Source of the DNA: Tetraselmis striata
Lineage: Eukaryota > Chlorophyta > Chlorodendrophyceae > Chlorodendrales > Chlorodendraceae
Assembly (NCBI GenBank): GCA_006384855.1
Contig: VCJN01003259.1
Location: forward strand, 124,001-188,000
Length of the DNA stretch: 64,000 nt
Direction: 5' to 3'
The notes under the pieces are model-generated. The model worked only from the letters and a program-made list of their open reading frames with translations. It did not search any database and had not been told where the DNA came from. Positions 10,728-60,249 of the stretch are shown one piece after another. The position numbers and the translations under genes are program-made. The stretch's first letter is position 1. Each line of letters opens with the position of its first letter.

Positions 10728-12244
10728 GCCAGCGATTCGACGAGCCGGGCAGGGACGCAGGCGCGCGGAGAGGGCTCGGGTGAGGCACGTGATACAGGCA
10801 GACAGCCGCTACCGGGATTCGCCTCGCCTGAGTGGAGATCGCGCGGGAGTGTGTTGGGGACCGCGCCCTGCGCAAGCATCACTAAGGTAAGGTAAAACAG
10901 CTCATCGGCCACAACGGCGGCGTTCGGGGGCGCTGACCGCCGCGGCCGCGGCAGTCAGCCTGTGGACCAGGATGCGCCCCTCGTCAGGTCGTCGCGTACT
11001 CCGACACCGCCCGTGCCAGTCAAGGTCACACTGGGCCAGCGCTGTGGCACCCCATATCAGCGATGCACCCTATTTTGCAGGGTATTCTAGGTTGTGCGCG
11101 GTGCTCAGCTGGCTAGGTCTTGGCATTCGCGGCGCGCGCCACCCGCGCGATACCCAGGCCAGGGGGTACAGGGTCGGCACAGGTTTGAATTACAAAAGCG
11201 TAAGCAACAAGAGCCTGCCGCGTAGTACAACACAGGTATTTATTAATTACATAAGGGCTTTCACAAAAGCGCACTACAAACAGAACTAACTTCGACTGTG
11301 AAAGGTTGCCAGCAAAAGAGAGAGACATAGGCCTGAAACCAAGGTCGAGCAGGAGGACAGGGAGCCAAGAACCAAGAAGGAGCCAAGGGAACCACGAAGT
11401 CACTTAGCTGTGCCGTCGCATGCTCGCATTCCCGCGTGGGGCGCTGTCACCAGCTCAATGGGCGGCCCATTTCTGAACGCGAACCTAAGTCACTACAGGC
11501 ACCTCTCAGACGCCTATAGGGCTTTAGTTCAGACCAGCGTTGCTGGTCTTGCCCGTACTCAGGGGGGTGAATGCCAGTGGCAATGAAGCCTCTCACCACA
11601 GGTCACTGCCACGCCGTGCAGTACTTTATGCAGTGCTGGTCGCGGCTATCAACCGTTCCTACAGTACTTTACGTCGGTACCGGGTCGAATGGTGACAACC
11701 CAGCACCACCAGCAGCGCGCGCGCACGATGCAGCGGGCAGCACGCGTGCGACCGTACGACAAGCACGCAGGCTACCGTGATTACCTTTGGCCCTCGTTCC
11801 TCAAGCCGATCTCCGTCTCTTACACCGTCTCCGTCCCGTACACAGGCTCTTGCCTATGCCTGTCATAGGCAAACACAGGCACACACAGGCACACACAGGC
11901 AAGACAAGGGGGAAGAGGGACCGCTAGAAGGCGGAGGCCCTCTATAAGCACGCGATCGCGGCCATGGCAAGGCAGCCGCACGTCACGCTAAGTGCTAATA
12001 GCACGCGCGCCGTGCGCGCACCGCGCGCCAGACGCATTACGCACTGCCCTTGTCTAATTGTACTCATCAAGTCCTATACTACTACTCGGCTGCGGCTACA
12101 GTGAGTCTTGCGCCTTGTACCAGCAGCAGTACAGTACTTCATCTTCTGCAGGTAGTCCACCTTAGGGGTCCCTGTTAGAGGTCCCGATTAGAGGTGCTAT
12201 CTGAGTTCCCTTAGAAGTCCCGCTTAGGTGTGCTTGGGCGGGTC
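10728..12244. other. Interval between RWA and the Gypsy element
   Basis: RWA 5' flank, then repeat-like DNA. 11868-11900 has short CAGGCACACA-type tandem copies. A plus-strand CTATAAG TATA-like motif lies near 11941. 11411-11470 duplicates a segment at 12438-12497. No gene is recognised. Confidence 0.45.
11411..11470. repeat. 60-bp direct repeat, copy 1
   Basis: Identical to 12438-12497, beginning TGCCGTCGCATGCTCG and ending in the palindrome ATGGGCGGCCCAT. Copy 2 spans the inner edge of the Gypsy terminal repeat; copy 1 lies outside the element. Confidence 0.9.
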
Positions 12245-12441
12245 TCTGATCTCCGGTATGTATGTCTCCTTGCGCCTCGCTCAGGGCTATGGCCAGGGTA
12301 TGGAACCCTAACCAATCAGGTGCCCTGCCTGTGGTCTCAACCGGGTATGGAACCCTAGCTTTAACCCTAGCCGGCCCGGAAGGGCTTGGCTGTCCCGTTC
12401 TTCACGCGCACGCGGATATGACGGATGCTGCGGCAGCTGCC
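12245..12441 (-). repeat. Gypsy 3' LTR (197-bp terminal direct repeat, left copy)
   Basis: Identical to 19551-19747. The repeat begins TCTGATCTCCGGTATG on the plus strand and ends GCGGCAGCTGCC. It does not have the usual TG...CA ends at these borders, so the exact LTR limits are uncertain. Confidence 0.85.
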
Positions 12442-12497
12442 GTCGCATGCTCGCATTCCCGCGTGGGGCGCTGTCACCAGCTCAATGGGCGGCCCAT
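12438..12497. repeat. 60-bp direct repeat, copy 2
   Basis: Identical to 11411-11470. It adjoins, and overlaps by 4 bp, the 197-bp terminal repeat, and is followed by a poly-C tract (poly-G on the element's strand). Confidence 0.9.
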
Positions 12498-12558
12498 CCC
12501 CCCCCCCCAGACGGTTGGTCGCCAGAAGGGTGAACGGCCGCTGGGCGCCAATCGACGC

Positions 12559-15500
12559 TCAGTGATGCTGGTCGCCAGCGCACGCCTCGGTGTGGAAGTG
12601 AATTGACGCCACGGAGTGACGCCACTCAGCTCGCAGTTCTCGCTCTCGCAGCTCGTTGTCGCGGAAGACCGCGAGCCACAGGGTTGATCGGCGCGTAGTG
12701 CGGTTACGCTGCATGTCGCCGGCAATAATGTGGAGCCGCCCACAATCGCCTAGATGCCGTAGCCACTGCATGCGCGGGGAAGGTCCCTGCGCGATGTAGA
12801 AGATTGGTACTTGCACGAAAAGGATGTCCGCGCATGACGCCATGATTGGCAGCGCCAGATCAAGTAGTTGGAACCACGGGGAGGTCACCACTATGAAAGG
12901 GGCCTCTAACCGCGGCTGTGTTGTCATCATCGTCGTCGTCATCATCGTCGTCATCGCCACAGTTGCGGTTACATCGCGAGCGCACTGGTACACAAAGGAT
13001 TCCAGCGCGTCCTCGCACATCTCAGTTTGGTACACCGGATTGAAGTCGTTGTTGATCACTGTCGCACCGCACGGCCGCAAGGCCTCAGCGGTGCTGCCAT
13101 GTCCCGCCCACGGATCAAAGATTACTCGGCCGCGCCAGCTGATCACGTTGGCTAGCGCAGCGTACTCGCTCACTTGGTTACTGATTGCCGGTAGACAGTC
13201 ATTGGCTGCTTGAAGGTTGTTCATCGTTCTCGTCACAGTTGCTGGGTGCCAGGCGCCAGGCATGCCCCAGTTCAGTCTCGCTGCCACTGCCGCTCTTGTC
13301 GGCTGCAAAGGCGGGGCAGGGTCTTGAATCTCCTCGTCGCTGTCGTCGTTGTCACTGATTGTTGTGGCGGCTAAAGCCACCGATGTCCACTGTGCCGGCA
13401 ACGCTGCGTCATCAGCGCTGCACTCCGCACACCGCCATGCCCCCCGCGGCACACGTGCCACAGGTGGCTGATGACACAACTTGTGCCAGCCTCGTTCACA
13501 GTCTTCGCAGATGATGATCGGGTTGCGCTGGGTGCTGACGCGCCCGTCGCACTCCTCGCACGCCATATTTGGGTCTTCAAATCCTGCCGGCAACACCACG
13601 TATGGAACGGCGCACCGCGCCAGCTCCTCAACGCGCACGCGCGCCGTGTCGCCGTCAGCTCCTTGGATGACCACCACTCCGTTGTCGTTCACCTCGTAAA
13701 CCTTGTAGACAGCCGGTCGCACTCGTGGATCGAGCGCGTCTTGCTGCCGCTGTTGCACGTAGACGAAGTCGCCGGGGCTGAAGCGTTGCACTCCGGGCGC
13801 CACCAACCCCGCGCGCCTCCTGCGATAGCGCATCACTTCACGATGCTGCGCCGCTTCCACGTTGTGCATCGCCGTCGGCACCATGAGCGCCAAACGCTCC
13901 GCGCGCACTGTCATCAGCTCCCACATGCCCTCCGGGCTGTTGAAGTCCACGGCGCTCTCCTCAAAGAGCGCTCTCGCCTGCGCGGGAAACACGGGTGCCC
14001 TGCCGTACACCAACTCGTATGGGCTGTACCTGGTGCTGGCTTGCTTGCTGCAACGGTAGCCCAGCTCGATGGAAGGCAGAAAAGTGTCCCACACGACGCG
14101 CTTGCCGGGCTGAACCACATAGCGCATCAGTGCCTCCTTGACTGTTTTCACCATCCCTTCCGCCAACCCATTGGGCTGCGGATGATAGGGCAGCGGCTTC
14201 GGATGATCGATGTCATGCTCCACGAGAAGCTCGTGGAACTCGCCGCTGAACTCGGTACCGCCGTCGGTACACACCTCGCCTGGCGCCGCGAAACGCGCCA
14301 GCACTCTCTCTTGAAAGGCTTGTCGTATGTTGGCTGCCTCCTTGGTGCGCAGCGGCACCAACTCCACCCACTTGCTCGCCGCTTCCACCATCACCAACAC
14401 CCAGACATTGCGACTGCGGGTGGCCTCAAAAGGCCCCGCCAAGTCCAAGTGCCAGCGGTAGAACATGCCGAAGTGCGGCAGCGGCTGCATGTCCAGCGGT
14501 GAGGCTGCCTTTGGGCGACCGCTGGTGCCGCCGGGTCGATGTTGCAGCCGATCGCAGTCCGGACACGCCTTCTTGACTCGGGCTACATCCTCCACCATCC
14601 CTGGCCAGAAATATGAAGCGGCGATAACACTGCGCAGCCGATCCCGCCCCAAATGGCCCATCTTGACATGCACATCCATAATCACCGTGTCTCGCTCACT
14701 GGGTGGCGGTACCTCGCGGTGCGTGCCGTCCTTGTGTAAATACCACAAGATGTTGTTTCTCCATGTATAGCGGGCATAAGGTTGCGGCATGTTGACGTTG
14801 CCCGCCTGCAGCTCCGCCATCGCCTCCGCGTCCATCCACGGATCGCCTCTCCGCGGTCCCGCCGTCAGCTCGCCGGTAACCGCCACCAAGTCGCCGTTGG
14901 CCGTGCCCTCATGGGCGGTGTCCAGCACGCGGCGTCGCGCCCATGCTGACAGCTCCGGCTGCCGGCTGCTCTGAGCCGTTGCGCACCAAAAGGCTGCCGC
15001 ATGTCGCACGGTGCCCTCCGGTGAAAACTCACCGCGCCCATCCAGCTCCGTTGGGTCGCCCTCCACGGGCCCCCGACTCAGACAATCTGCGTTGACGTGG
15101 TGAGCGCCCTTCCGATAGCGTACCACGAAGTCGTACTCGCTGAGCCTCATCGCCCACCGCGCCAACTTCCCACGAAGCTGAGCGGTGTTCATCAGCCATT
15201 CCAAAGGCCGATGATCTGTCACCACCACAAACTGCCTGCCAAACAGATAGTATCTGAACTTGTCCATGCCATACAACATGGCAAGACACTCACCCTCATA
15301 GCTGGCATAGTTGGGCTCCGCGCCTTGGCAGGTGCGGCTCGCAAACTCCACCACGTACTCCTGTCCTTCGTCGTCCTCCTGCGCCAACACCGCGCCCAAT
15401 CCAGCTCCGCTGAAATCGGTGTGCAGGATGAAAGGGCGGCTCCAATCCGGATTTCTCAGCACGGGAGCTGAAACCAGGTCTGCCTTGAGCTGCTCGAAGG

Positions 15501-17862
15501 CTCGTTGCTGCTCCGATCCCCACTCCCACGGCACCTTGCCAGTGAGCTTGGTCAGCGGCTTGCGCTTGACTGCAACTTGCTCGATGAACTTACCGTAGTA
15601 GCCCACCATGCCGAGGAAGCGCCGAAGCCCCGCAACGTCAGTCGGCGGCGGCATCTTCACCACAGCCTCCACCTTGGAGTGCTGCGGGAATACGCCTTCG
15701 CCGTCGACCCAATGGCCCAAGAAAGCAATCTGCCTCACGGCCATGCGCCCCTTGCCGGGCGCCAGTCTGATGCCCGCCGTTGCGAGCCTCTGAAACACCG
15801 TCTCCAAATGCTGAAGGTGCTGCTGAAACACCTCAGCGTCGCTCATCTCGGCTGCGCCTGAAAAGACACAGATGTCATCGGCGTAAACCGCCACGAACGG
15901 CAGATCGCCAAGGGCCTCATCCATGACACGCTGCCATGCTTGGCTGGCGTTCTTGAAGCCCATCGCCATCCGGCACCACTCATACTGCCGGTCGCTGCCC
16001 CAAAAGGCAGTCTTGTGTCGGTCCTCCTCTGCGATGGGCAGCTGATGAAACGCCGACTTGGCGTCAAACCCGCTGTACATGCGCGCGCCTGCGACCTTGC
16101 TGAGTAGCTCGTCTGTCTTGGGCATACAATACGCCCACGACTCAGTGACACTGTTCAACGGGCGAGCGTCCAAACACACCCGGATCCCGGTCCAGTTGCC
16201 GTCGTCGTCCTTCTTCGGTGGACACACTACTGGGATGCTGTAGGGAGATTGGCTCTCGCGGATCGCCCCAGCTGCCAACAGCTCCTTGCACCAGCTGTCC
16301 ACGAAGTCCCACTCAGTCTTGCTCAATCGGTACTTGGGTCGCTTGATGGGCTGCGTGTTGGTCGTCGGTATCCTGAACTCCCAGTGGTTGACGGCCGGTA
16401 GGTCGCTGACGGACCACACCCACACGTCATCCCAAAAGCTGTCGCAGAGCTCCACTAGCTGTTGTTGCTGTGAAGCCTCGCACTCGCGCCCGCACCGCCA
16501 GTGTTTCTCAGGATCCTTCAGGCTGCGAACATCCTCCACGTGATCATTCATACTTGCCTGCGTGTAGCCACGATTGGCCCACGCAGCAGCGCTACTCCGT
16601 TCCGCAGTCCCGCCGCCGTCCGACACGGCGTTGGCGCCGAAAGCTCGGCGCCCCGCCCTGCTTGTCGCCGTCACCTCGCGGCGGTAGCGCGCGCTCGCGC
16701 GCACCATCACTGCCACGAACATGGCTAACACCGTGGTGTTGCCGAGACGACTCGCCTCGCCGAAGTGCATTGACGTGCCGCCCAACCAAATGAGCAGCAG
16801 CCAGCAGCATAGCGCCTGTTGACACAGCTGCTGCCATGCTCTCCCGCAGGATCTCTGCATCCTGTGTTGCTCTCGTCTCTCTCGTTCCGCGCGCTGAGCT
16901 GCCTGGGCAGCCCGAGCTGCGCGCTCCAGCTCCTCCAAGTCCCTCAGTCGCTGCTGCTCCACGAAGAGCTGCCCGACGATCCACGCTACGCTGTGCAGAC
17001 CCATGGCATTGCCTATGAGGCGCTCATGGTCCGGCAGCGATATGCCGTGAATTACGTTCGGCTCGTAACCGAAAAGCTCCTCCTTCAGGTGGACAGTGGG
17101 CCGTTCCCACTCGCCCGTGTTGATGTTGAACAACATGCCGGCCCCCTCGCCGGAATAGGCATCTGAGTCCGATCGCGCCAAGATCGTTGGCAACGCGCGT
17201 GGCTGCCCCGGTTTGTTGACGCGAACTCCGTTGGGTGGCGTCGGCAGATTGACATGCGGCCGTAGGTGCGGTGGCAGCACCTCTCGCAGCAGTCGTGGCT
17301 GCATGTCCGCCCGCCTCTCCCACGCCAACTTCAGTCTCTCCACGTCCCCCATGTTCGTCCAGAATCGTCGCACTCGGTGATGATTCGCTCCACAGCCCGC
17401 CTCATCAATCACGAGCGCTCTCCCGATGATCTTCGTGATGTATTTCTCAGACTCTTTGATGTACAGTCTCTCGTCTCCGCTCGTATCCACGTTCTCCAGC
17501 AGCCACCCCACGCCGGTGGGCTGCTTCTCCTCGAGCTTCTCGATGAACGCGGCCACGTGAAAGAGCAAACGTGACCTCCGGTCGCGCAATCCTAGCGCGT
17601 TGCGATTGGCTCTGCTCATGCCTGGGCAAGGCCATCCACACCCCACTATGTCTATGTATGGCAGGCGCCTCACGTCCTCCGTTGTGATCGCCGTGATGTC
17701 CTGTGGAAACGAGTCCCACCCCTTGATCGCGCTAGCTGGTAGTAGATCCGGATATCTCCTACTGAGCTCCTTGAACACGCTGCCCAGCGGCCTTGCGGGC
17801 TGCCGGGTCGATGTCCGAATGCCGGTATCTGGCCACCTTCTGACCGTTGGCCAGCATGGCAT
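12559..17862 (-). CDS. Gypsy ORF2: C5-methyltransferase / RT / RNase H / integrase / PHD / second methyltransferase-like polyprotein
   Basis: Uninterrupted 1767-codon frame. Residues about 45-305 continue a C5-cytosine methyltransferase begun in ORF1: motif IV GCGWPCPGMS (catalytic Cys near 77), motif VI ENV (about 121), motif VIII-like HHRVRRFW, motif X LIGNAM. Two hydrophobic stretches follow (about 347-395). Reverse transcriptase lies at about 475-700 with YADD near 660, RNase H with HTDFSGAGLG near 814, and the integrase HHCC zinc region at about 1070-1107. The D,D,E core is marked by HLDLAGPF (about 1137), DGGTEFSGEF (about 1200) and PQPNGLAEGM (about 1231). A C4HC3 PHD finger spans about 1432-1478 (CEECDG, CEDCERGWHKLC, WRCAEC). 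The C-terminal domain has a SAM-binding-like FDPWAGHGST (about 1584) and VVTSPWF (about 1661). The initiator is unclear because translation probably enters from ORF1. The chromatin-reading and DNA-methylating roles are inferred. Confidence 0.9.
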   Translation of the reverse strand: MPCWPTVRRWPDTGIRTSTRQPARPLGSVFKELSRRYPDLLPASAIKGWDSFPQDITAITTEDVRRLPYIDIVGCGWPCPGMSRANRNALGLRDRRSRLLFHVAAFIEKLEEKQPTGVGWLLENVDTSGDERLYIKESEKYITKIIGRALVIDEAGCGANHHRVRRFWTNMGDVERLKLAWERRADMQPRLLREVLPPHLRPHVNLPTPPNGVRVNKPGQPRALPTILARSDSDAYSGEGAGMLFNINTGEWERPTVHLKEELFGYEPNVIHGISLPDHERLIGNAMGLHSVAWIVGQLFVEQQRLRDLEELERAARAAQAAQRAERERREQHRMQRSCGRAWQQLCQQALCCWLLLIWLGGTSMHFGEASRLGNTTVLAMFVAVMVRASARYRREVTATSRAGRRAFGANAVSDGGGTAERSSAAAWANRGYTQASMNDHVEDVRSLKDPEKHWRCGRECEASQQQQLVELCDSFWDDVWVWSVSDLPAVNHWEFRIPTTNTQPIKRPKYRLSKTEWDFVDSWCKELLAAGAIRESQSPYSIPVVCPPKKDDDGNWTGIRVCLDARPLNSVTESWAYCMPKTDELLSKVAGARMYSGFDAKSAFHQLPIAEEDRHKTAFWGSDRQYEWCRMAMGFKNASQAWQRVMDEALGDLPFVAVYADDICVFSGAAEMSDAEVFQQHLQHLETVFQRLATAGIRLAPGKGRMAVRQIAFLGHWVDGEGVFPQHSKVEAVVKMPPPTDVAGLRRFLGMVGYYGKFIEQVAVKRKPLTKLTGKVPWEWGSEQQRAFEQLKADLVSAPVLRNPDWSRPFILHTDFSGAGLGAVLAQEDDEGQEYVVEFASRTCQGAEPNYASYEGECLAMLYGMDKFRYYLFGRQFVVVTDHRPLEWLMNTAQLRGKLARWAMRLSEYDFVVRYRKGAHHVNADCLSRGPVEGDPTELDGRGEFSPEGTVRHAAAFWCATAQSSRQPELSAWARRRVLDTAHEGTANGDLVAVTGELTAGPRRGDPWMDAEAMAELQAGNVNMPQPYARYTWRNNILWYLHKDGTHREVPPPSERDTVIMDVHVKMGHLGRDRLRSVIAASYFWPGMVEDVARVKKACPDCDRLQHRPGGTSGRPKAASPLDMQPLPHFGMFYRWHLDLAGPFEATRSRNVWVLVMVEAASKWVELVPLRTKEAANIRQAFQERVLARFAAPGEVCTDGGTEFSGEFHELLVEHDIDHPKPLPYHPQPNGLAEGMVKTVKEALMRYVVQPGKRVVWDTFLPSIELGYRCSKQASTRYSPYELVYGRAPVFPAQARALFEESAVDFNSPEGMWELMTVRAERLALMVPTAMHNVEAAQHREVMRYRRRRAGLVAPGVQRFSPGDFVYVQQRQQDALDPRVRPAVYKVYEVNDNGVVVIQGADGDTARVRVEELARCAVPYVVLPAGFEDPNMACEECDGRVSTQRNPIIICEDCERGWHKLCHQPPVARVPRGAWRCAECSADDAALPAQWTSVALAATTISDNDDSDEEIQDPAPPLQPTRAAVAARLNWGMPGAWHPATVTRTMNNLQAANDCLPAISNQVSEYAALANVISWRGRVIFDPWAGHGSTAEALRPCGATVINNDFNPVYQTEMCEDALESFVYQCARDVTATVAMTTMMTTTMMTTQPRLEAPFIVVTSPWFQLLDLALPIMASCADILFVQVPIFYIAQGPSPRMQWLRHLGDCGRLHIIAGDMQRNRTTRRSTLWLAVFRDNELRERELRAEWRHSVASIHFHTEACAGDQHH

Positions 17863-19465
17863 TCAACACGGCAACGTAGCCTCCGCCACATGGCTCGTAC
17901 AGGCTGATGCCCTCTTCGCGGGTGCTCAGCCTCGCCAGCCCGTGACGCTGCAGGCTCTGCACCTCCCGCAAAGGCGGTAGGTCTGCCGGCTCGCAGGTCT
18001 TGGACTCTTGCACGTCACGCCGTGAGGGTTCGTGGGCGGCGTGGCTGTGAGACACGTCACTGCCCCCCCCACTCTCCTCCCCCATCTCATCATCGCCGAG
18101 CTCCACCCCATGGCAGTAGCTCGCTCTCTCCACGCGCACCACAGGTTGGTGCTCGCGTACCCGCCGCTCCCACGCCGTTTGACTGAGCAGTGGCACTCTG
18201 CCGGCCGGTCGGTTGGGTGCGCGGAAAGTGCAGATCCTGGTCGCCGGGTCCGGTCGCAGCCCGAGGGCTGTGATGGTGGGTCCACCGAGCAGCAAGCCCG
18301 GTGCCTCGCCTCCATTCTCGTACACGCGCGGTGCGTGATGAGCTGCCATGATTGAGGTGACGGGGTCCCGAAGCGTGAAGACCACGCCATCCCGCAATCG
18401 TCGTTGTTGCTCGCATGAGCGCTTGCCATTGGCGAGCACCACCACCATGTCGACGTCCACCCACCCGCCAGCGCCCTTCACCACGGCCTCCGCCGCGCTT
18501 GGTTCCATCGCTGACGCGTTCATGCGGGTGTGGCTGCTCCCGCCGTCGGAAATGGTCTCGCACTGCAGCAGGGTATTGTTGGCGTGCAACTCGCACGTGA
18601 TGGTGTCAAGCCGAGCCGTCTCCGGCTGCTCCTTCGCCTCAGCCCCCGTGGGCTGAAGGGCAAAAATGCCCTTGTGGGCGACTTCCGCCTGCTGCTCCAG
18701 GCAGCGTCGGGTCTCAGACCCTTTGGGCAGCCGTAGTGCTTGCTCCCTGATGTCTGCCTCAGTGGCACTGCGTCGATAGTCAGTGGCGGGTTCCCACTTG
18801 CCGCTGCGGCGACATACTGATGCCTCCTCAACCGCCGTGCTGGCATTGCGCTGCGCATTTGCACGCTTGCGATCTTCCTCCTCCTCGCGTTGTCTCGCGA
18901 GTTGACCTGGCCGGTAAATGGCAAAAGACCGTTCAGTCTCAGCCTCTCCGCCAGCGGTCTTCTCCTCCGCGGTAGACTTGCCGCCGCTTTGTTGGTCAGC
19001 GACCTCCTCCACCATCATCAGCGCTGCCTCGAAGGCGCGCTCCCCGCTCGAGGTCCTGGCTGAGTGAGCGTGGCTGCTGATCGGCTCGGTACTCAGGGCA
19101 CCGCCGCCCCATGCTGTTGCCATGACGCTCTCCATCATCCCGCCGCCGCTGCGCTCGAGCTGGTAAGCCTCCATCAGGCTGATGGAGACTCGCTTGCTCT
19201 CCAGAGCACGCATGACAGCATGCTTCTCCCAGCCATCCTCCACGGGCTCGTGCTTGACCAGCCGCTTGGCGATCTCCATCAGTGGCATGCGCGGCTGTCC
19301 ACCGCCGTTGGCCAGTGACACAGGCACCGTGACGCTCTGAGCTGCGCTGGTAAGCTTCGCCGTCAGCTCTGTACGGCTGTGCATTTGCTGCGCCATCTCC
19401 ATCGATGGGGTGGTGAAGCCGCGAGGCAGCCTCCGCTGCCTGGCCTCACGTTCTCCGTCCTCCAT
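17759..19465 (-). CDS. Gypsy ORF1: gag-like region, aspartic protease-like domain and N-terminal part of C5 methyltransferase
   Basis: 568 codons from the first Met inside the right LTR; the frame stays open upstream to 19621 within the LTR. Residues 1-250 are hydrophilic, Glu/Arg-rich and gag-like, with no zinc knuckle. A retropepsin-like domain follows: ISDGGSSHTRM near residue 305 (DGGS where DTG/DSG is usual) and LLLGGPTITALGL near 392. The last 70 residues match C5-methyltransferase motifs I and II (ISLYEPCGG, then HSDIDPAARKAA). The frame stops at 17759 just as the homology continues in ORF2, one base shifted, with 104 nt of overlap. Dropping one G at 17769-17770 (minus-strand AAGGAG) restores continuity into RRYPDLLP. 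A +1 ribosomal shift, a mutation or an assembly error could each explain it. Confidence 0.75.
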   Translation of the reverse strand: MEDGEREARQRRLPRGFTTPSMEMAQQMHSRTELTAKLTSAAQSVTVPVSLANGGGQPRMPLMEIAKRLVKHEPVEDGWEKHAVMRALESKRVSISLMEAYQLERSGGGMMESVMATAWGGGALSTEPISSHAHSARTSSGERAFEAALMMVEEVADQQSGGKSTAEEKTAGGEAETERSFAIYRPGQLARQREEEEDRKRANAQRNASTAVEEASVCRRSGKWEPATDYRRSATEADIREQALRLPKGSETRRCLEQQAEVAHKGIFALQPTGAEAKEQPETARLDTITCELHANNTLLQCETISDGGSSHTRMNASAMEPSAAEAVVKGAGGWVDVDMVVVLANGKRSCEQQRRLRDGVVFTLRDPVTSIMAAHHAPRVYENGGEAPGLLLGGPTITALGLRPDPATRICTFRAPNRPAGRVPLLSQTAWERRVREHQPVVRVERASYCHGVELGDDEMGEESGGGSDVSHSHAAHEPSRRDVQESKTCEPADLPPLREVQSLQRHGLARLSTREEGISLYEPCGGGYVAVLNAMLANGQKVARYRHSDIDPAARKAAGQRVQGAQ

Positions 19466-19550
19466 GCGCACCGTGTTGACGCCATGGCGTTGAGCCTCCG
19501 TGCTCTTACGCTGTGGGCGCAACTGGCTGGCTGCTGCCAGCCCCACCACC

Positions 19551-19747
19551 TCTGATCTCCGGTATGTATGTCTCCTTGCGCCTCGCTCAGGGCTATGGCC
19601 AGGGTATGGAACCCTAACCAATCAGGTGCCCTGCCTGTGGTCTCAACCGGGTATGGAACCCTAGCTTTAACCCTAGCCGGCCCGGAAGGGCTTGGCTGTC
19701 CCGTTCTTCACGCGCACGCGGATATGACGGATGCTGCGGCAGCTGCC
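19551..19747 (-). repeat. Gypsy 5' LTR (197-bp terminal direct repeat, right copy)
   Basis: Identical to 12245-12441. Reading inward on the minus strand it is followed by GGTGGTGGGGCTGGC, whose TGGTGGGGCTGG could be a tRNA primer-binding site. Immediately outside (19748 on) lies LINE-like sequence, so the element may have inserted into, or be truncated by, that fragment. Confidence 0.85.
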
Positions 19748-19786: not shown

Positions 19787-20659
19787 TCAGCCGCGGCGAG
19801 GACGCTTGCAGCCAATGACCCGGGTCATAGCAACACATGCCGACGAGCGACGCGGCGCAGGCGCAGGAGTACCATCACGTGCCGCACGCGCGGGCGCGAC
19901 CCCGCCAAGAACGTTGTCTGCATGTGCCATGTTGATGAGCAAGGAGAAACGGCGGCGCCACGCAGACAAGAGCTGGCCGATTTTTTGGCCAGTGTGTGTG
20001 TGGCTAGCTTTCGCGAGCTCCACCAAGAAAGCCTCGGCGTGCGGGGCCAGCGAGCCAAACTCGGAAACGGCGAAAGGAACAAAGCGAAGCATGCCGGCGG
20101 CGTTTCGGACACCCTCGTCATACTTCTGGATTTTGTGGCGCTCTGCAGCCCTCAAAGCAGTCGTTGGATCCGAGCTTGACACGCCGAGGATGGGGGCAAT
20201 AATGGTGGTATCGATAGCAACCGTGTTTCCGCGGATACCGCCATACCCGAAAAGCCCAACATCGGCCGGCCGGCCGTCGCTGCCCTTCGGGAGAGAAACA
20301 AGCACCGACGGGTCCGTGAGGATCTGGACACCCACGCCCAGCGCGGACTTCACGTCGTGGCAAATGTCGGAAAGGCCATGTGCGGCCCACTCGTGTGCGG
20401 CGTGATTGGAGACGCCCCCAGAGCAACGTGCCACGTGATCAGCGTATGCGACCGCCCAAGTTGAAGGAGTGAACTCCACGCCAGCATCCTCAAAACGGGC
20501 CAGCATACCTTGTACCGAGAAGGAGCAAGAAGCACAAGGGCATGGCTCGCCAAGGGAGAGGACAGGAGCCGCCGGAAGGCCAAATGGGCGGCAAGCGGCA
20601 ACACGGAACATGGAATCGTAGTATGCAACACAGGTACTACGCGGTACCTGCGTCGGCAC
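19787..20659 (-). pseudogene. LINE-like retroelement fragment: C-terminal zinc/endonuclease-like region
   Basis: 290-codon frame with a Cys motif (CPCASCSF), then RPADVGLFGYGG, AIDTTIIAPI and AAERHKIQKYDEG, then FVPFAVSEFGSLAPHAEAF. This D...D...K spacing ending in a 'P.AVSEFG' block is characteristic of the region after reverse transcriptase in many algal LINE-like elements, where it resembles a PD-(D/E)XK nuclease. No reverse transcriptase is present, so it is a 5'-truncated remnant. It abuts the Gypsy right LTR. It belongs to a different family from the copies at 35.7-42.4 kb and 61.4-62.4 kb. Confidence 0.65.
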
Positions 20660-47932: not shown

Positions 47933-49031
47933 ATGCGTCGTATTTACGTGATTGACGAGTCCGAAGCAATCGCCCCATGGGCTGCTTCATTCCGGTCCCG
48001 TTTACAGGAAACGTTTGGCTCAAACGAGTTGGGATAGCGGGCCCTCGACCTACTCTCTAATTCCGTGACTCCCCGGACGCTCAAGAGCTACGCCGGCAGG
48101 CTGTCTAGAAGCGCGGAGTTTTGCCACGACTCCGAGATCATAAGCCCGGTGGAGGCGACCACTGCCACTGTCGTCCGGTACGTCGCTTGGATTGGTGAGC
48201 GAGGCCACATTGGGGCTAAGTCGTTGCAGCCCTACCCCTCAGCTAGCACCACGTTCTTCGAACTACAAAATGTTGACCCCATCGCTAACGATAGTCTGCA
48301 TCTCACCGACGCGCGTCGTGGCATGTTCCTAAGGCAGTGCCGCATGGAAGCTGTGACTTTACGAGTCCCGTTGCATGCTAATGTAGCTTTCGCTGTCGTC
48401 GAGCGCGCCGAGTTGATTGTGTTTGCTCTCCTCCCCAAGTGTCAGTACGGCTTCCGGGCCCTCGTGGCCTCGGTTGTCAACTTCATATTCTTTGCCATGG
48501 CACTTATTACTGGCGTGTCCTGCCAAGTGCGGGACGTGTATTTCGACTCCTACAACATCACCAGGCAGGTGTACCGTGCCGGACGGCGCGGCCCCGACGA
48601 CCTTCGTATGTTACTCCTTCCCGTGTCGGGGCACCCCCGCGTCGCCCGTCTTCTGCACATCTTCATCTACAACGTTCAGTCTGCCCACCTGGTCCATGTT
48701 GCCTTGGCCGAGACAAACTTCTGGGCGGTCACCCCGAGCGAGCAGTCCAAATCTTGGATTGCTGTTACAATGTCGGACCAGCTGTCTACGGCCGTTCGCC
48801 TCGTTGGTGCTGCCCCTCCCGCCGGCATATCTTGGGGCTCTCACAGCCTACGCAAGGGTGAAGCCTCTGTTGCTATCGCCATCGGAGTTGCGATGTCCCG
48901 CATTCGCCACCAAGGCGGATGCATGGGCCACAAACTCCGACGTCGTTATGGACTACATACACCCCAACGTCCTCCCTTCACATGGCGCGTGGTTCTTCTT
49001 CGTCCACATCGCGCGCCTTCGCCACTTCTAA
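47933..49031 (+). pseudogene. Tyrosine recombinase (phage-integrase fold), decayed
   Basis: Starts MRRIYVIDESEAIAPW with an in-frame TAG shortly after, then a long frame from 48065: LKSYAGRLSRSAEFCHD, WIGERGHIGAKSLQPY, GVSCQVRDVYFDSYNITRQV, ISWGSHSLRKGEASVAIAIG (HxxR box) and RHQGG. A 4-base insertion at about 48918-48925 (GGATGCATGGGCC for GGATGGGCC) shifts frame. The catalytic-tyrosine segment SDVVMDYIHPNVLPSHG then lies in the next frame, ending at 49031. Confidence 0.65.
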
Positions 49032-49347
49032 GTTTAACAAGTCTCCGCAGCGGTGGCCTTCCCCGGTGCCCCCTTCGTGACTTGGCGCCATCTCTTGTTC
49101 GTCAATCTACCGCTCTCTCCGTTCGCTCATCGATCACTGGCAAAACCATACTCAACTTGAAATGATCTAAACTAATTAGGGGTTTCCTCCTTCCTAATCG
49201 CTTTTCCGGCTACCGTTGTTGCTAAGTGGTACGGGTTACTAGTTCACCCGTCGCTGCACCCGTTCGTGTGCTGCAGCACGAGTAGACCTAAAAGCAGACG
49301 TAACAGCTGAGCCTTCCACTTTCGCTGTGTTATCATAGCACCCCCCG

Positions 49348-55812: not shown

Positions 55813-58407
55813 CATGCGCATCTGCACAATGCCAGTCATACTATCTGGATACATCTACATCTCTACCTGCAGGTGCATATGCATGAATATCAACGTTGTG
55901 GAACAGCGCCTGACTGATATGGTGCCGGTCGGTCAGTTGGCATAGCATTCATTTATCAGGGATACTTATGCCACACTATTCTGGATGACGGGCCGCACGC
56001 AAATTAGTGCAGCAGAGTCTCGACCGATCTATACTCGAACCGTGATGCCCATTACACCAGATGATCAGGTACGCAAAGCTAACCCCGCGACATGTAGAAA
56101 GCTACGGCACCGCATCCTTGCCCAGCGTACCACGCCCTATCCCGCTATCCGTCCATAAAACGTTGTACATGTGAGAATGGAACTATTATTCATAATCGTA
56201 GGACTGGTGATATATGCGGTTTTTTGGTCCTGCTGGGCATGCCGACATCCTGCTCCATACGGCGTCCGACAAAATTACGTGCGTGCTGCGTTTATGGACG
56301 AGTCATTTCACAGATATCGGTTGTGTCGCTTCTGCTAATTTAGAAATCCGCACATGCATCATGCCGGTGCAGACACGGCGAGGAAACTTGTGGTTAAGAG
56401 CGACACGCCCTGTCTGTGGCCGAGGCATGGCACCTGCGCGGTGTATCCACATCAAAACACATCAACATGGGCTCAAAAACCGTTTGTGTTGTCGGGTTCA
56501 GCGTATGTGTTGTCGGGTCGCGGCACGCAGATGCTTAAACAGAGAGGATTATTAAGGCTTCGTTTCTCCCATAGGTGTAGACTGTCGAGACATATGGATT
56601 AGGGAGCACCTCCAGGCTGCTCTGCCCAGGGCGGTGTGGGGGTCTACCGTGGTCAGCTAGAGTGTGTTATAGCTTCACTTTGTGGGATGCTATGGCCCAG
56701 GCCTATCATCTTATGGCACTTGGGAAAAGTTCTTATGACGAATGGGCCAAACAGCCCATCAGCGTCCTCATTCGTATTCACATGTATACAATATCATAGA
56801 TACATTCTTGTGCTTACTTCGTTGCAACGCTAGACTGGATCATTTGTTTCGGGCTGCTCAAGCGGTCAAGCTCATCGCATCTCGTTGTATAATCCATGCA
56901 GCGGCCTATTTTGTGCTGACGGGCGCACGCGTGCACAACTACACATGTGACAGACAACAGCTGCTTGATTCGTCGACGTGTGGCTCGTTGCGCGACGCCG
57001 GCCGGTGTCTGCATACACGAATTTCGGCGTGACTGCCGTGCGCTGCAAAATGACATTGTTGCTGCTGACGATGGGGATCATCGTTACTTCCACAACTGCG
57101 GCGGTGATATAATGGAATAGTAAAACTGCCATCTCCTTGGAATGCTGGGAGGCATGCATTTACATGGGAGGCTGGCAGACATGCATAGCAGCTATTGCGA
57201 TGATGCATACATATGTTTCGCGGGACGGCGGCTCCAATGCTTCGTGCTGGCCACTAAACGACATGGTGTGGATAGGCAAGGCGGATTTCTATGAAGTGAC
57301 AAAAACTGAAGAGTGTTAGGCGGGAATAGTAGGGAATTGAGTATATGTGTAGGATTGTGTATGCGCTGATGTATCATACACATCATTTAATTATTATTGC
57401 GCGGGCCGGCATATTGCTTTGTTTATTTAAAAAAACAAAAGTGCGTAACTGGCGTCGGACGACCGTGCTGCTACTGTGGAATTTGTAGCCCTGCTTGCGT
57501 AGTTCTGAGTGGTATTTATATGAAAATGTTCCGACGTTTCCTCGCAACGCACTGAGCGATACCGCGATTTTGAGAACTGCACCATCGCACTGCAGTGTCG
57601 ATGGTATCACTCCACATCGTGCATGGGCGCATGCCACTATGGCCCCAACCCAACCAGAAATACCCTAGCCTCTTTGTTGACATGTTTTCTCGCCCACCCA
57701 TGGCCGTACCACCATGCGATAGTTTACGCATGGCGGCGGGACCTGCGGGGCACCAACCCCCGTTGTTGTGGGGGTACTGGAAACGCTCAGTGTGGCGCAA
57801 GAGCTACTCGTTTAGGACACTTGTTAGTGCCAAAGGGGTTGCTTGCACCCTATGGTGCTGATAAAGGCTGAGCATTTATGCGCAACATTCCAGGATTTTA
57901 GGTCATAAACCCTAGATTTAGCTGCCCTACTATTCGTAAGCTTGGATTCGGCGAGAAAGGGGTCTTGGACTTATGTGGAAAGGTATATGACGTTATTATA
58001 TCGACTATATCGACTATACCTGTATACATCGATATGCATCGTCTTCAGACTACGAATCCCTGCTGTTCTCTCGCGTGCTGACCCCAGGCCAAATAGCCAC
58101 ATCTCGTCCACTCGGCCAAAATCGCCAGCGTGCTGGCAGCTCCAGCTGCGAGACGGCACGCTTGCCGCCAGCGAGACTTGCCTGTTGCAAAGATCCCAAT
58201 ATCATCGTTTCGCGCGCATGCGTTGCAGCAGGCCGGCTGTAGTCAGGCCGGCTGCCTGCCGCTACTACTGTACGCCGCCCGTTCGCCGGCTGCTAGAGGT
58301 GCTTAGCCATCGGCGACAGTGAGCGCCAACCCCCGCCGCCGGACCGACGGCTCGCACCACGAGGAGCTCGCGCCATTTAGCCTGCCCCGACCCAGCGAGT
58401 GCGTGCG
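55812..58407. other. Interval between acid phosphatase and HA-repeat gene
   Basis: No gene recognised. Mixed AT content with short open frames only. The last 250 bases become GC-rich and probably form the promoter and 5' UTR of the HA-repeat gene. Confidence 0.4.
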
Positions 58408-60249
58408 ATGTGGCGCCTGGCCTTTTTTGCCGGCGAGGCGCCGCGCGCAACGGCGCGCGCGCTGAGTGCCTGTGCGAACCGCCCCGTTGGACCGCCAGCC
58501 GCCGGCTGTGGCAGTGGTAGCGATGGCTGCTTCGGTGCGTGGCCACTGCCCTCTGGCAGCCCGCTGGTAGCTGTGGCGGCCTGGAGCGCCCCTGGACGGC
58601 GGTGGCCGAACTTCCGACTCCCCTCGGCGCCCCTCCCTCAGCGGCATCCGCTAGCTTCCCACAGCAGCGCCGCGCGGAAGGTTGAGGCGGAGCCAGGCAG
58701 CGCTCTCGCGCAGCTGGCGAGTGGCGTGCCGGCGGACTGGGTGCAGATGCTCCGCCAGCTGGAGCGCTACGTGGCGGAGCACGGCCACGCGCGCGTGCCG
58801 CTGCCGCAGGGGGAGGGGAGCAGGGAGAACTACCGCCTGGCGCGCTGGGTCAACACGCAGCGCGTCAATCGCAAGCGCGGGCAGCTGTCGGCGGCGCAGG
58901 AGGCGGCGCTAGAGGGCCTGGGCCTGGAGTGGGACGTGTTCGAGGCTGAGTGGCGGCGGCAGTACGCGCGACTCGTGGCGGTGCGCGACGCCGCAGGGCC
59001 CGGCGGCCTCAGCCTGGCGGCTCTGCGCGCCAGCATGCCGGACCTGTACAACTGGGTGGTTTACCAGCGCGTGCGGCAGCGAAAGGGCAAGCAGCGGCCG
59101 GAGTTTGTGGCCCTGCTGGAGGGCATCCAGTTCCAGTGGAGCCCGCAGGATGCCATGTGGGTCGCCGCGTTTGAGGAGTACAAGGCTGCGTCGCCAGAAA
59201 TGCGCCGCAGGGCGTCCACCGGGGAGGACGGCAGGTGCGGGAGAGAGGGAAAGGGGGAGGCGGAGGATGGGGGCGGAGGCGGTGATGGGCGCTTGGCTGA
59301 TGTATTTGGCGGGCTGGAAGTTGTCTGGCGCACCCGCAAACCACTCTGTCCCTGTCGTCGTTTGGGCGCAGGGTGGCGCGCTGGGTGAACGAGCAGCGGC
59401 GGGTGTACGCAGAGGGGCGCCTGCCAGAGGAGCGAAAGCGGTCGCTGGAGGCCGTCGGCTTTGTGTGGAGAATCGCGGACACGGAGTGGGCCGCAATGTA
59501 TGAGCGGCTGGCGAGGAGCAAGGACGCGGCGGGCCACTGCCGTCCGCTGGGGGACAGGCGCCTGCAGCGCTGGGTGTCGGCGCAGCGATTGGCGCGCCGC
59601 GAGGGGCGGTTAACGGCGGAGCGCATTGCGGCGCTGGACTCCCTCGGCATTGACTGGGATCCGGCGGGGCTTGGGGCAAGGTGGGAGGCGAGGATGTCAG
59701 AGCTGCGGGCGTTCCGGGAGCGCAAGGGGCACTGCATGGCGACACACGACTCCGGGGCGTCGCACAAACTTGTCGTTTGGTGCCCCCCCCCCCCCCCCCC
59801 CCTTGGCTGTCACCTCTTGAGGGGCACATGATGTCCCGCTGGTGTCCCATGCAGGGAAGGAAGGGTCGGTCCAGAATTGTGCGAGGATTGAGTGGCAGGT
59901 AATTCATGGCATGCTGCCTGCTGGCAGGTGTGAGTGGCAGCGGCGGCTCTGGCGGGAGGGCAAGCTGAACGCGAAGCGGCAGGCACGGCTGGCGGAGGTG
60001 GGCTTTGTGTGGAGGCCGAGCGACGCGGCCTGGGAGCGGCATTTTGCGGAGCTGCGCGCACTGCGCGAGCGCCGGGGGCACTGCCAGATACCTGTGGCGG
60101 AGGGCGCGCGGCCGCATTCCCTCAAGCTGTGGGGCTCCTACCAGCGCCGCCTGTGGCGCGGCGGCCGGCTCCTGCCGCATCGCGAGCAGAAACTGCGCTC
60201 CATTGGCTTCGACCTGGAGCGCCAAGCAAAGGGGCATGACGTCTCCTAG
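58408..60249 (+). CDS. Helicase-associated (HA) domain repeat protein with probable organelle presequence
   Basis: Exons 58408-59234, 59372-59779 and 59928-60249 join in phase to 518 aa. At least four HA-type units (about 65 residues each: W, an F/Y/L-rich helix, G-H/HC, then 'LxxWVxxQR...GxL...R...LexxGFxW') are visible, at residues about 105-170, 276-375, 380-440 and 447-508. Examples: ARWVNTQRVNRKRGQLSAAQ; RVARWVNEQRRVYAEGRLPE; LEAVGFVW; RERRGHCQIP; YQRRLWRGGRL. No helicase motifs are present. HA domains bind nucleic acid in bacterial helicases, while free-standing algal arrays are uncharacterised. The first 90 residues are rich in Ala/Arg/Pro/Ser with MWRLAFFAGEAPRATARALS at the start, suggesting a mitochondrial or plastid presequence. 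The 59780 donor was chosen because it keeps ...VVW/CEWQRRLW in frame. Confidence 0.85.

Follow-up and report, generated by a model that had tools for sequence, protein, structure and literature searches.

The window analysed here, a 64,000-nucleotide stretch of the genome of the chlorophyte alga Tetraselmis striata (GenBank assembly GCA_006384855.1, contig VCJN01003259.1, positions 124,001 to 188,000), carries on its minus strand, at positions 11411-19740, an internally deleted copy of a young family of Ty3/gypsy-type retrotransposons. The element encodes a C5-cytosine DNA methyltransferase (hereafter C5 enzyme) that is divided exactly at a change of reading frame, with motif I/II at the end of open reading frame 1 (ORF1) and the remainder in ORF2, and, behind the integrase, a PHD finger followed by another methyltransferase-like domain (hereafter the second domain). 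A first-pass annotation of the window had proposed a Gypsy element with its own C5 enzyme, followed in ORF2 by reverse transcriptase (RT), RNase H and integrase; both parts of this proposal were borne out, the latter by Pfam matches, and the element is comparable in kind to the charophyte and dinoflagellate cases. That annotation did not include the PHD finger and second domain, the constant +1 relation of the frames, the true ends with their permuted repeats, the deletion in the window copy or the C5 domains in Ty1/copia elements of this genome.

The divided C5 enzyme

Five homologues from other database sources (P0017-P0021) served to build a C5 profile, which was run against 635 six-frame ORFs of at least 60 amino acids from the window and a further locus, L074. 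Two matches exceeded the threshold, ORF2 (E 1.8e-32) and the tail of ORF1 (E 4.5e-8), and they covered complementary parts of the profile, positions 13-61 in ORF1 and 60-329 in ORF2. Motif I/II (EPCGGG ... DID) was located by the profile match at 17771..17920, at the end of ORF1, and motifs IV (GWPCPGMS), VI (ENV), VIII-like (HRVRR) and X (GN) at 16948..17775 (ORF2 residues about 30-305) by Pfam, profile and structure-database matches. Motif I, the Pro-Cys of motif IV, the ENV of motif VI, the Arg of motif VIII and the GN of motif X thus occur in order, with motif I/II in the other frame, and all of the motifs named in the first-pass annotation were found. The Pfam DNA_methylase model (PF00145) scored 21.9 bits on the whole of ORF2, against a cut-off of 22, and 25.2 bits on its first 331 residues. 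A ten-row alignment shows no variation at the catalytic Cys, at the EN of motif VI or at the Arg of motif VIII. Against solved structures, the window C5 piece alone matched DNMT3A (E 0.00085), and the ten-row family profile found DNMT3A best (E 3.9e-19), ahead of HaeIII, DRM2, HhaI and DNMT2. Doubts as to whether the Pro-Cys and ENV segments align with C5 enzymes at all are thereby answered, and the window C5 domain is, judged from these matches, DNMT3-like.

The two frames overlap by 104 bp (17759..17862) in a +1 relation. Thirty copies were compared over 541 bp (one copy over 506 bp). The overlap has 11 substitutions and no indel in any of the 30 copies, and the 541-bp stretch is gap-free in 26 of them, the gaps of the other four falling in an upstream G run (18062-18067). 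An error as the source of the frame break was rejected, since all 30 copies share the same break and the overlap is free of indels. A relative, P0005, which is 76% identical over ORF2 and available as a protein only, is an ORF2-type protein that lacks motif I/II and starts ~23 residues inside the window ORF2.

The PHD finger and the second methyltransferase-like domain

The PHD finger (ORF2 1435-1481; 13420..13560) matched PF00628 above its cut-off as well as PHD domains in the PDB. Beyond it, the C-terminal end of ORF2 comprises about 236 residues, which form the second domain (DPWAGHG ... NDFNP ... TSPWF; ORF2 1522-1757; 12592..13299). When the window and P0005 were left out of the training set, the resulting profile, run against the same ORF set as the C5 profile, matched the window domain at E 7e-57. 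A search with the C-terminal region returned 14 matches, of which P0022 matched by PHD fingers only and was excluded, and five others were Tetstr1 models; the comparison was made among nine proteins (the window, P0005, P0012 and P0016-P0021). The PHD finger and the second domain are present in all nine aligned proteins, P0016 being degenerate. Since it was the C-terminal region that retrieved the eight relatives, the second domain in them is there by selection; the informative part is that C5 sequence is also present in all eight.

The kind of methyltransferase that the second domain resembles was approached through several databases. The DNA methyltransferase family phrog_799 was matched by four of the nine second domains (P0018 at 1.6e-10, two others at 1.1e-4 and 6.9e-5), a D12 adenine methyltransferase model was weakly touched by two (best 0.0065), and the best solved structure for the second-domain profile was a putative modification methylase (0.0086). 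NCBIfam gave one weak match over the nine second domains, and a phage tblastn search with that of P0018 gave none. The motif I of amino-methyltransferases is present in the window domain. At motif IV, six of the nine rows have SPW, two have SPP (TSPPF) and one has neither; the SPPY form goes with most N4-cytosine enzymes, as described in the part of the literature consulted (PMC8885841). The chemistry of the second domain, and whether it would be catalytically active with an SPW motif, are doubtful on these sequence grounds.

The second domain also occurs as stand-alone ORFs at dozens of places in the genome, mostly of about 220-380 codons among the best 150 of 824 candidates. One such homologue (L074 535-1221; C155:181034-181720) matched the second-domain profile at E 1.8e-39. 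This ORF adjoins a 139-codon frame.

Coding layout and classification

All coding features lie on the minus strand. ORF2 (pol) encodes 1767 amino acids (12559..17862, from the ORF list), and the truncated ORF1 (17759..19552) comprises the C-terminal part of gag, a protease-like region recognized by eye and C5 motif I/II. Within ORF2, RT (residues 549-718; 15709..16218; PF00078, RVT_1) is followed by RNase H (781-910; 15133..15522; PF17919 and PF17917) and by the H2C2 and rve core of the integrase (1052-1220; 14203..14709; PF17921 and PF00665), whose acidic triad was assigned by eye to D1140, D1200 and E1235. RVT_1, RT_RNaseH, H2C2, rve and PHD were all above the Pfam cut-off. In full-length copies, the order is gag with a zinc knuckle, protease-like region, C5 motif I/II, the +1 overlap, C5 motifs IV-X, RT, RNase H, integrase, PHD finger and amino-methyltransferase-like domain.

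The order RT, RNase H, rve integrase, a zinc-knuckle gag (in a full-length copy), TG..CA ends and a short target duplication are all as in Ty3/gypsy elements; the same long terminal repeat (LTR) at both ends is not found, the element having repeat A at its 5' end and A-x-B at its 3' end. DIRS elements have a tyrosine recombinase instead of an rve integrase and are not known to produce target duplications. Membership in that tyrosine-recombinase group was rejected, because the element has an rve integrase and 4-bp target duplications.

A hydrophobic stretch was observed by hydropathy in the linker between the C5 domain and RT (about ORF2 350-391; 16690..16815), and a similar one precedes RT in P0005, P0012, P0016, P0017, P0019 and P0021, with none seen in P0018 and P0020. 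It may be a membrane anchor of the polyprotein.

Permuted repeats and target duplications

The repeat plan of the family is permuted, A-coding-B-A-B, with the order B1-GC-A2-x-B2 at the 3' end. Repeat A (952-962 bp, TG..CA) stands at the 5' end, and repeat B (60 bp) lies behind a G run. In the window, these parts are B2 at the 3' terminus (11411..11470, a 60-bp match to B1, ending in ..CGGCA on the element strand), the LTR-like A2 of 962 bp (11474..12435, by repeat comparison), a GC spacer (12436..12437) in the palindromic B-GC-A junction CGGCAGCTGCCG, B1 (12438..12497, a 60-bp match to B2) and a run of 11 G on the element strand that resembles a polypurine tract (12498..12508). At the 5' end, only the first about 191 bp of A1 remain (19550..19740), joined to gag via 3 bp of shared sequence. 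The first-pass annotation had placed the element between identical 197-bp repeats; that repeat (198 bp) proved to be a piece of the 952-962-bp repeat A, and it was rejected as an LTR for this reason, the true span of the element being that given above.

The window copy is flanked by the 4-bp duplication GCTG, CAGC on the element strand, read from the sequence at 11407..11410 and 19741..19744. Perfect 4-bp duplications were found in all eight copies with both flanks read (CAGC in the window, and GGAA, GGAG, GCCC, CATC, GGTG, GTGT and GGGC). The B1-GC-A2 junction is identical in all 11 copies read. B2 was present in 12 of the 15 3' ends examined, and every A2-x-B2 junction was different, the range extending from junctions with a heavily trimmed B to ones with over 50 nt of filler; B2 was not found at the 3' ends of C311 and C2415. 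At the 3' end of C1687 (C1687:68820-69000, L070), A is followed, instead of B2, by an inverted A reached through a 15-nt complementary word. In the window, 15 nt of A (11903..11917) are complementary to the 15 nt directly after A1 in the full-length copy C1240, and mark a possible self-priming site. Self-priming is known from Tf1. Such a mode is possible for this family on the strength of the complementary pair, and the fold-back in C1687 would fit self-primed synthesis.

The family in the genome

The assembly searched, 2903 contigs with 224 Mb in total, has at least 131 match rows for the C5 segment of ORF2 (best 124 of 380 candidates) and at least 130 for the segment with the PHD finger and second domain (best 116 of 948 candidates). 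At least 38 matches cover at least 320 of the 321 C5-segment residues at 96% identity or more; counted by eye, 15 of the 38 near-complete copies have this segment inside an open frame of at least 1750 codons. Lack of the methyltransferase region from the genomic copies, which the first-pass annotation had named as grounds for refutation, is thus not what was found. Full-length copies measure about 11.5 kb (C569 and C1240) and have an ORF1 frame of 1129 codons with a zinc knuckle. The A repeats of C1240 show zero mismatches over the 601 and 552 nt compared, which indicates a recent insertion. Relative to such copies, the window copy is without about 3.2 kb, namely the 5' repeat past its first ~191 bp, the leader and ~530 gag codons including the zinc knuckle, and the run-on of its ORF1 frame into the repeat is an artefact of this deletion.

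Of eleven proteins retrieved with the C5 part of ORF2, ten were models labelled jgi/Tetstr1, up to 100% identical, which agrees with T. striata as the source of the genome. None of the ten contains the catalytic GWPC motif, so that surveys resting on gene models can miss the family.

Relatives and other C5-bearing elements

The position of the C5 domain differs among the relatives. It precedes RT in the window, P0005, P0012 and P0016; it lies between RNase H and integrase in P0018-P0020, according to Pfam, and ahead of the integrase zinc finger in P0017 and P0021, according to motif positions. No relative was found in viral contigs with P0005, nor in genome contigs with P0019.

The same genome holds other elements with a C5 domain. 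In two Ty1/copia elements scanned, the domain lies ahead of the Pol_BBD and integrase region. Six distant C5 loci were fetched out of 21 distant places among the matches listed, and six C5-bearing frames of 2147 codons were also matched by RVT_2. PF00145 had at least 123 genome matches (best 123 of 337 candidates), 39 of them inside open frames of at least 1000 codons, and none of those listed lay at places of the window family. Long open frames with the C5 motif-IV region were observed in C663, C1197, C2750 (2299 codons), C205 (2298), C2687 (3505) and C2193 (2483). A search with RVT_1 to place the long C5-bearing frames returned mostly other families among the best 150 of 3001 candidates. Further C5-bearing families resembling retrotransposons seem, by their frames and domain matches, to be present in the genome. 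Six stand-alone C5 frames of 325 codons, matching positions 1-320 of the Pfam profile, were also observed (C1993, C776, C1647, C2337, C355 and C1455); these are perhaps from integrated viruses. In a quick tree with long branches and no DNMT3 reference, the C5 domains of the copia elements stood beside the window clade (SH-aLRT 93), and exchange of the C5 domain between element superfamilies is possible on this basis.

Substitution patterns between copies

Thirty young copies were compared codon by codon with the window copy as reference, fewer copies being available for each region. The ratio of nonsynonymous to synonymous divergence (pN/pS) was 0.14 for C5 in ORF2 (29 copies), 0.14 for the second domain (11 copies) and 0.09 for the protease region (28 copies), and 0.43 for RT and 0.30 for gag (27 copies each). 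RNase H gave 0.09 (6 copies), H2C2 plus integrase 0.15 (5 copies), the C-terminal part of the integrase 0.03 (9 copies) and the PHD finger 0.27 (11 copies), and the values were 0.89 for the spacer (11 copies) and 1.72 for the linker (29 copies). When each variable site was counted once, the numbers of nonsynonymous and synonymous sites differed from those of the linker (41:15) for C5 (24:28, Fisher p 0.006), the second domain (15:17, p 0.02) and the protease region (18:29, p 0.0006). Because the copies have shared ancestry, all of these substitution counts are rough. Between the window and P0005, identity is 71% in C5 and 69% in the second domain, 85-91% in RT, RNase H and integrase, 63% in the linker and 43% in the spacer. 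Purifying selection on both the C5 enzyme and the second domain is suggested by the comparison among copies.

Proposed mechanism and alternative explanations

We propose an explanation that joins the divided enzyme, the PHD finger and the permuted ends, and which, as a whole, we consider moderately probable. A +1 ribosomal frameshift would yield a whole C5 enzyme in Gag-Pol only, so that the enzyme would be packaged together with RT and integrase. It would then methylate the double-stranded cDNA of the element before or at integration, and methylated new copies might pass for host DNA or come to lie in chromatin of a tolerated state; among the roles that can be imagined for the enzyme from its coding context, this self-methylation of cDNA appears the likeliest. 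The PHD finger, next to the integrase and the second domain, would read a histone mark at the target, and the second domain would either add a second mark or bind DNA as a non-catalytic relative. As to the ends, the linear cDNA, with an LTR of the form B+A, would be closed into a circle or concatemer, its ends being joined with loss or filler, and the integrase would cut this circle or concatemer at the B-GC-A palindrome, which would give the permuted ends. The C5 enzyme may be active, may methylate copies of the element and may in this way hide it. On a wider scale, we tentatively raise the rather unlikely prospect of an old and widespread algal lineage of Ty3-type elements, in which a kit for 5-methylcytosine and amino-methylation is tied to a PHD reader, with C5 and Gag-Pol coupled by frameshifting (in this clade), a circle marked as self and integration by cutting at the palindrome.

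Several points weigh against this explanation. The second domain of the window matches no Pfam, NCBIfam or PHROGs family, and its motif IV is TSPWF rather than the usual (D/N/S)PP(Y/F/W). Identity within the 541-bp stretch is 98-100% for most of the 30 copies, and their 30 constant frames are therefore not independent tests. The low pN/pS of motif I/II (0.07, 29 copies) rests on one synonymous site common to copies; no difference from the linker was detected for RT (25:15, p 0.27), gag (p 0.34), RNase H (p 0.08) or the PHD finger (p 0.22); and in the 83% copy C2010 the C5 value of 0.29 is hardly below the linker value of 0.35. Other retrotransposons are abundant and apparently lack a methyltransferase (1561-amino-acid copia frames among the matches listed, the lack being judged from their length). 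The priming, polypurine and circle steps, which are putative readings of the repeat sequences, are also weak points.

The alternatives are partly compatible with the proposed explanation and not all mutually exclusive. One or both domains might be catalytically dead or act on RNA, and be kept as structural or RNA-binding parts. The atypical TSPWF motif speaks for this, as does P0016 (a cluster of 21 members), which has lost the second-domain signatures and has EH for EN in C5, and RNA has been discussed for a dinoflagellate LINE (long interspersed nuclear element) enzyme in the part of the literature seen (PMC5890265); the invariance of the C5 catalytic residues in the ten-row alignment and the substitution pattern among copies argue the other way, and we consider this possibility unlikely, though not negligible. 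Somewhat less likely still is that the methyltransferases act on target chromatin and not on cDNA, the PHD finger and integrase picking the site and the enzymes silencing its neighbourhood. The PHD finger does stand between integrase and second domain in the nine aligned rows, and the bdelloid N4CMT is, as described, a histone reader fused to an amino-methyltransferase (PMC8885841), but the C5 domain is far from the PHD finger in the polyprotein and, as noted, does not keep to one position among the relatives.

Bacterial C5 enzymes divided between two overlapping genes are known, and Ty3-type elements normally need Gag-Pol. A split enzyme without frameshifting, in which a Gag-protease product with motif I/II associates with a separately started ORF2 product, would draw on the ATG that ORF2 has right after a stop (17860-17862), ahead of the C5 remainder; as ORF2 carries all of the pol enzymes, and P0005 has nothing that corresponds to the N-terminal 20-odd residues of ORF2, we hold this to be quite improbable. 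A dying element whose frame break stems from a disabling mutation, or from a fault in the assembly, is highly improbable, for although the window copy is deleted, with most of gag gone, the identical break in 30 of 30 copies, the long open frames of 15 of the 38 near-complete copies and the equal lack of motif I/II in the ORF2-type protein P0005 all speak against it.

Comparison with known systems

Gypsy, DIRS and LINE elements that have captured C5 enzymes are already published (PMC5890265, in the part seen). The closest description there is that of KnitGypsy-Dnmt3 from Klebsormidium nitens, which shares with the window element the Gypsy domain set, a DNMT3-like C5 domain inside Pol and the DIRS-like A-coding-B-A-B repeat plan, and for which purifying selection is reported. 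Compared by description only, it differs in that neither PHD nor frameshift is mentioned in the main text of that paper; adenine methyltransferases appear in the main text for DIRS elements and in general mentions only, and a circle or palindrome explanation of the DIRS-like repeats was not found in the parts of it that were available. SymbioDIRS-Dnmt3 and SymbioLINE-Dnmt of Symbiodinium (PMC5890265) are likewise retrotransposon-borne C5 enzymes in many copies, and de novo CG methylation has been shown for the SymbioDIRS-Dnmt3 type; as described there, they belong to tyrosine-recombinase or LINE elements without an rve integrase, with one methyltransferase each. DIRS1-like elements with a Dam-like adenine methyltransferase, cited in the same paper, also combine a retrotransposon with an amino-methyltransferase, again with a tyrosine recombinase, the likeness being one of description. 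DNMT3 members in LTR Copia elements, and also in DIRS elements, are noted in one sentence of PMC12344493, and the Ty1/copia elements with a C5 domain in the T. striata genome resemble these; the part of that paper seen mentions no chlorophyte element or second domain. The bdelloid N4CMT (PMC8885841) is similar in joining an amino-methyltransferase with an SPP-type motif to a histone-reading domain, and differs, according to the sections consulted, in being a host gene with a chromodomain instead of a PHD finger, an intact SPPY and demonstrated N4-methylcytosine activity. The green algae among the MMETSP transcriptomes are reported to have no DNMT3 (PMC9998398, as far as that text was available).

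Thus, C5 capture in a Gypsy element with permuted repeats is already known, and for the double-enzyme plan no published account was found in the texts available: no Gypsy element that combines a C5 domain with a further methyltransferase-like one appeared in the literature searched, which left subscription papers mostly uncovered. The element extends C5 capture by retrotransposons to a chlorophyte, in many copies and in two element superfamilies of one genome, and its polyprotein unites with the C5 enzyme a histone reader and a further methyltransferase-like domain. With near-identical copies, many of which have an open ORF2, this alga, which can be grown in culture, offers a means of testing what benefit a retrotransposon draws from DNA methylation.

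Other features of the window

Next to the element, the end of an ORF at 19787-20659 (minus strand), which had no Pfam match, recurs downstream of a copia element (L048 3114-5282), and this ORF was classed as a repeat. A 366-codon ORF at 48065-49165 (plus strand) matched the phage integrase SAM-like family PF13495 weakly (E 0.049) and contains an HSLRKG motif, which we take to be tyrosine-recombinase-like. Further along the plus strand, an ORF at 58399-59388 has two matches to the Helicase-associated (HA) domain (PF03457, E 7e-23).

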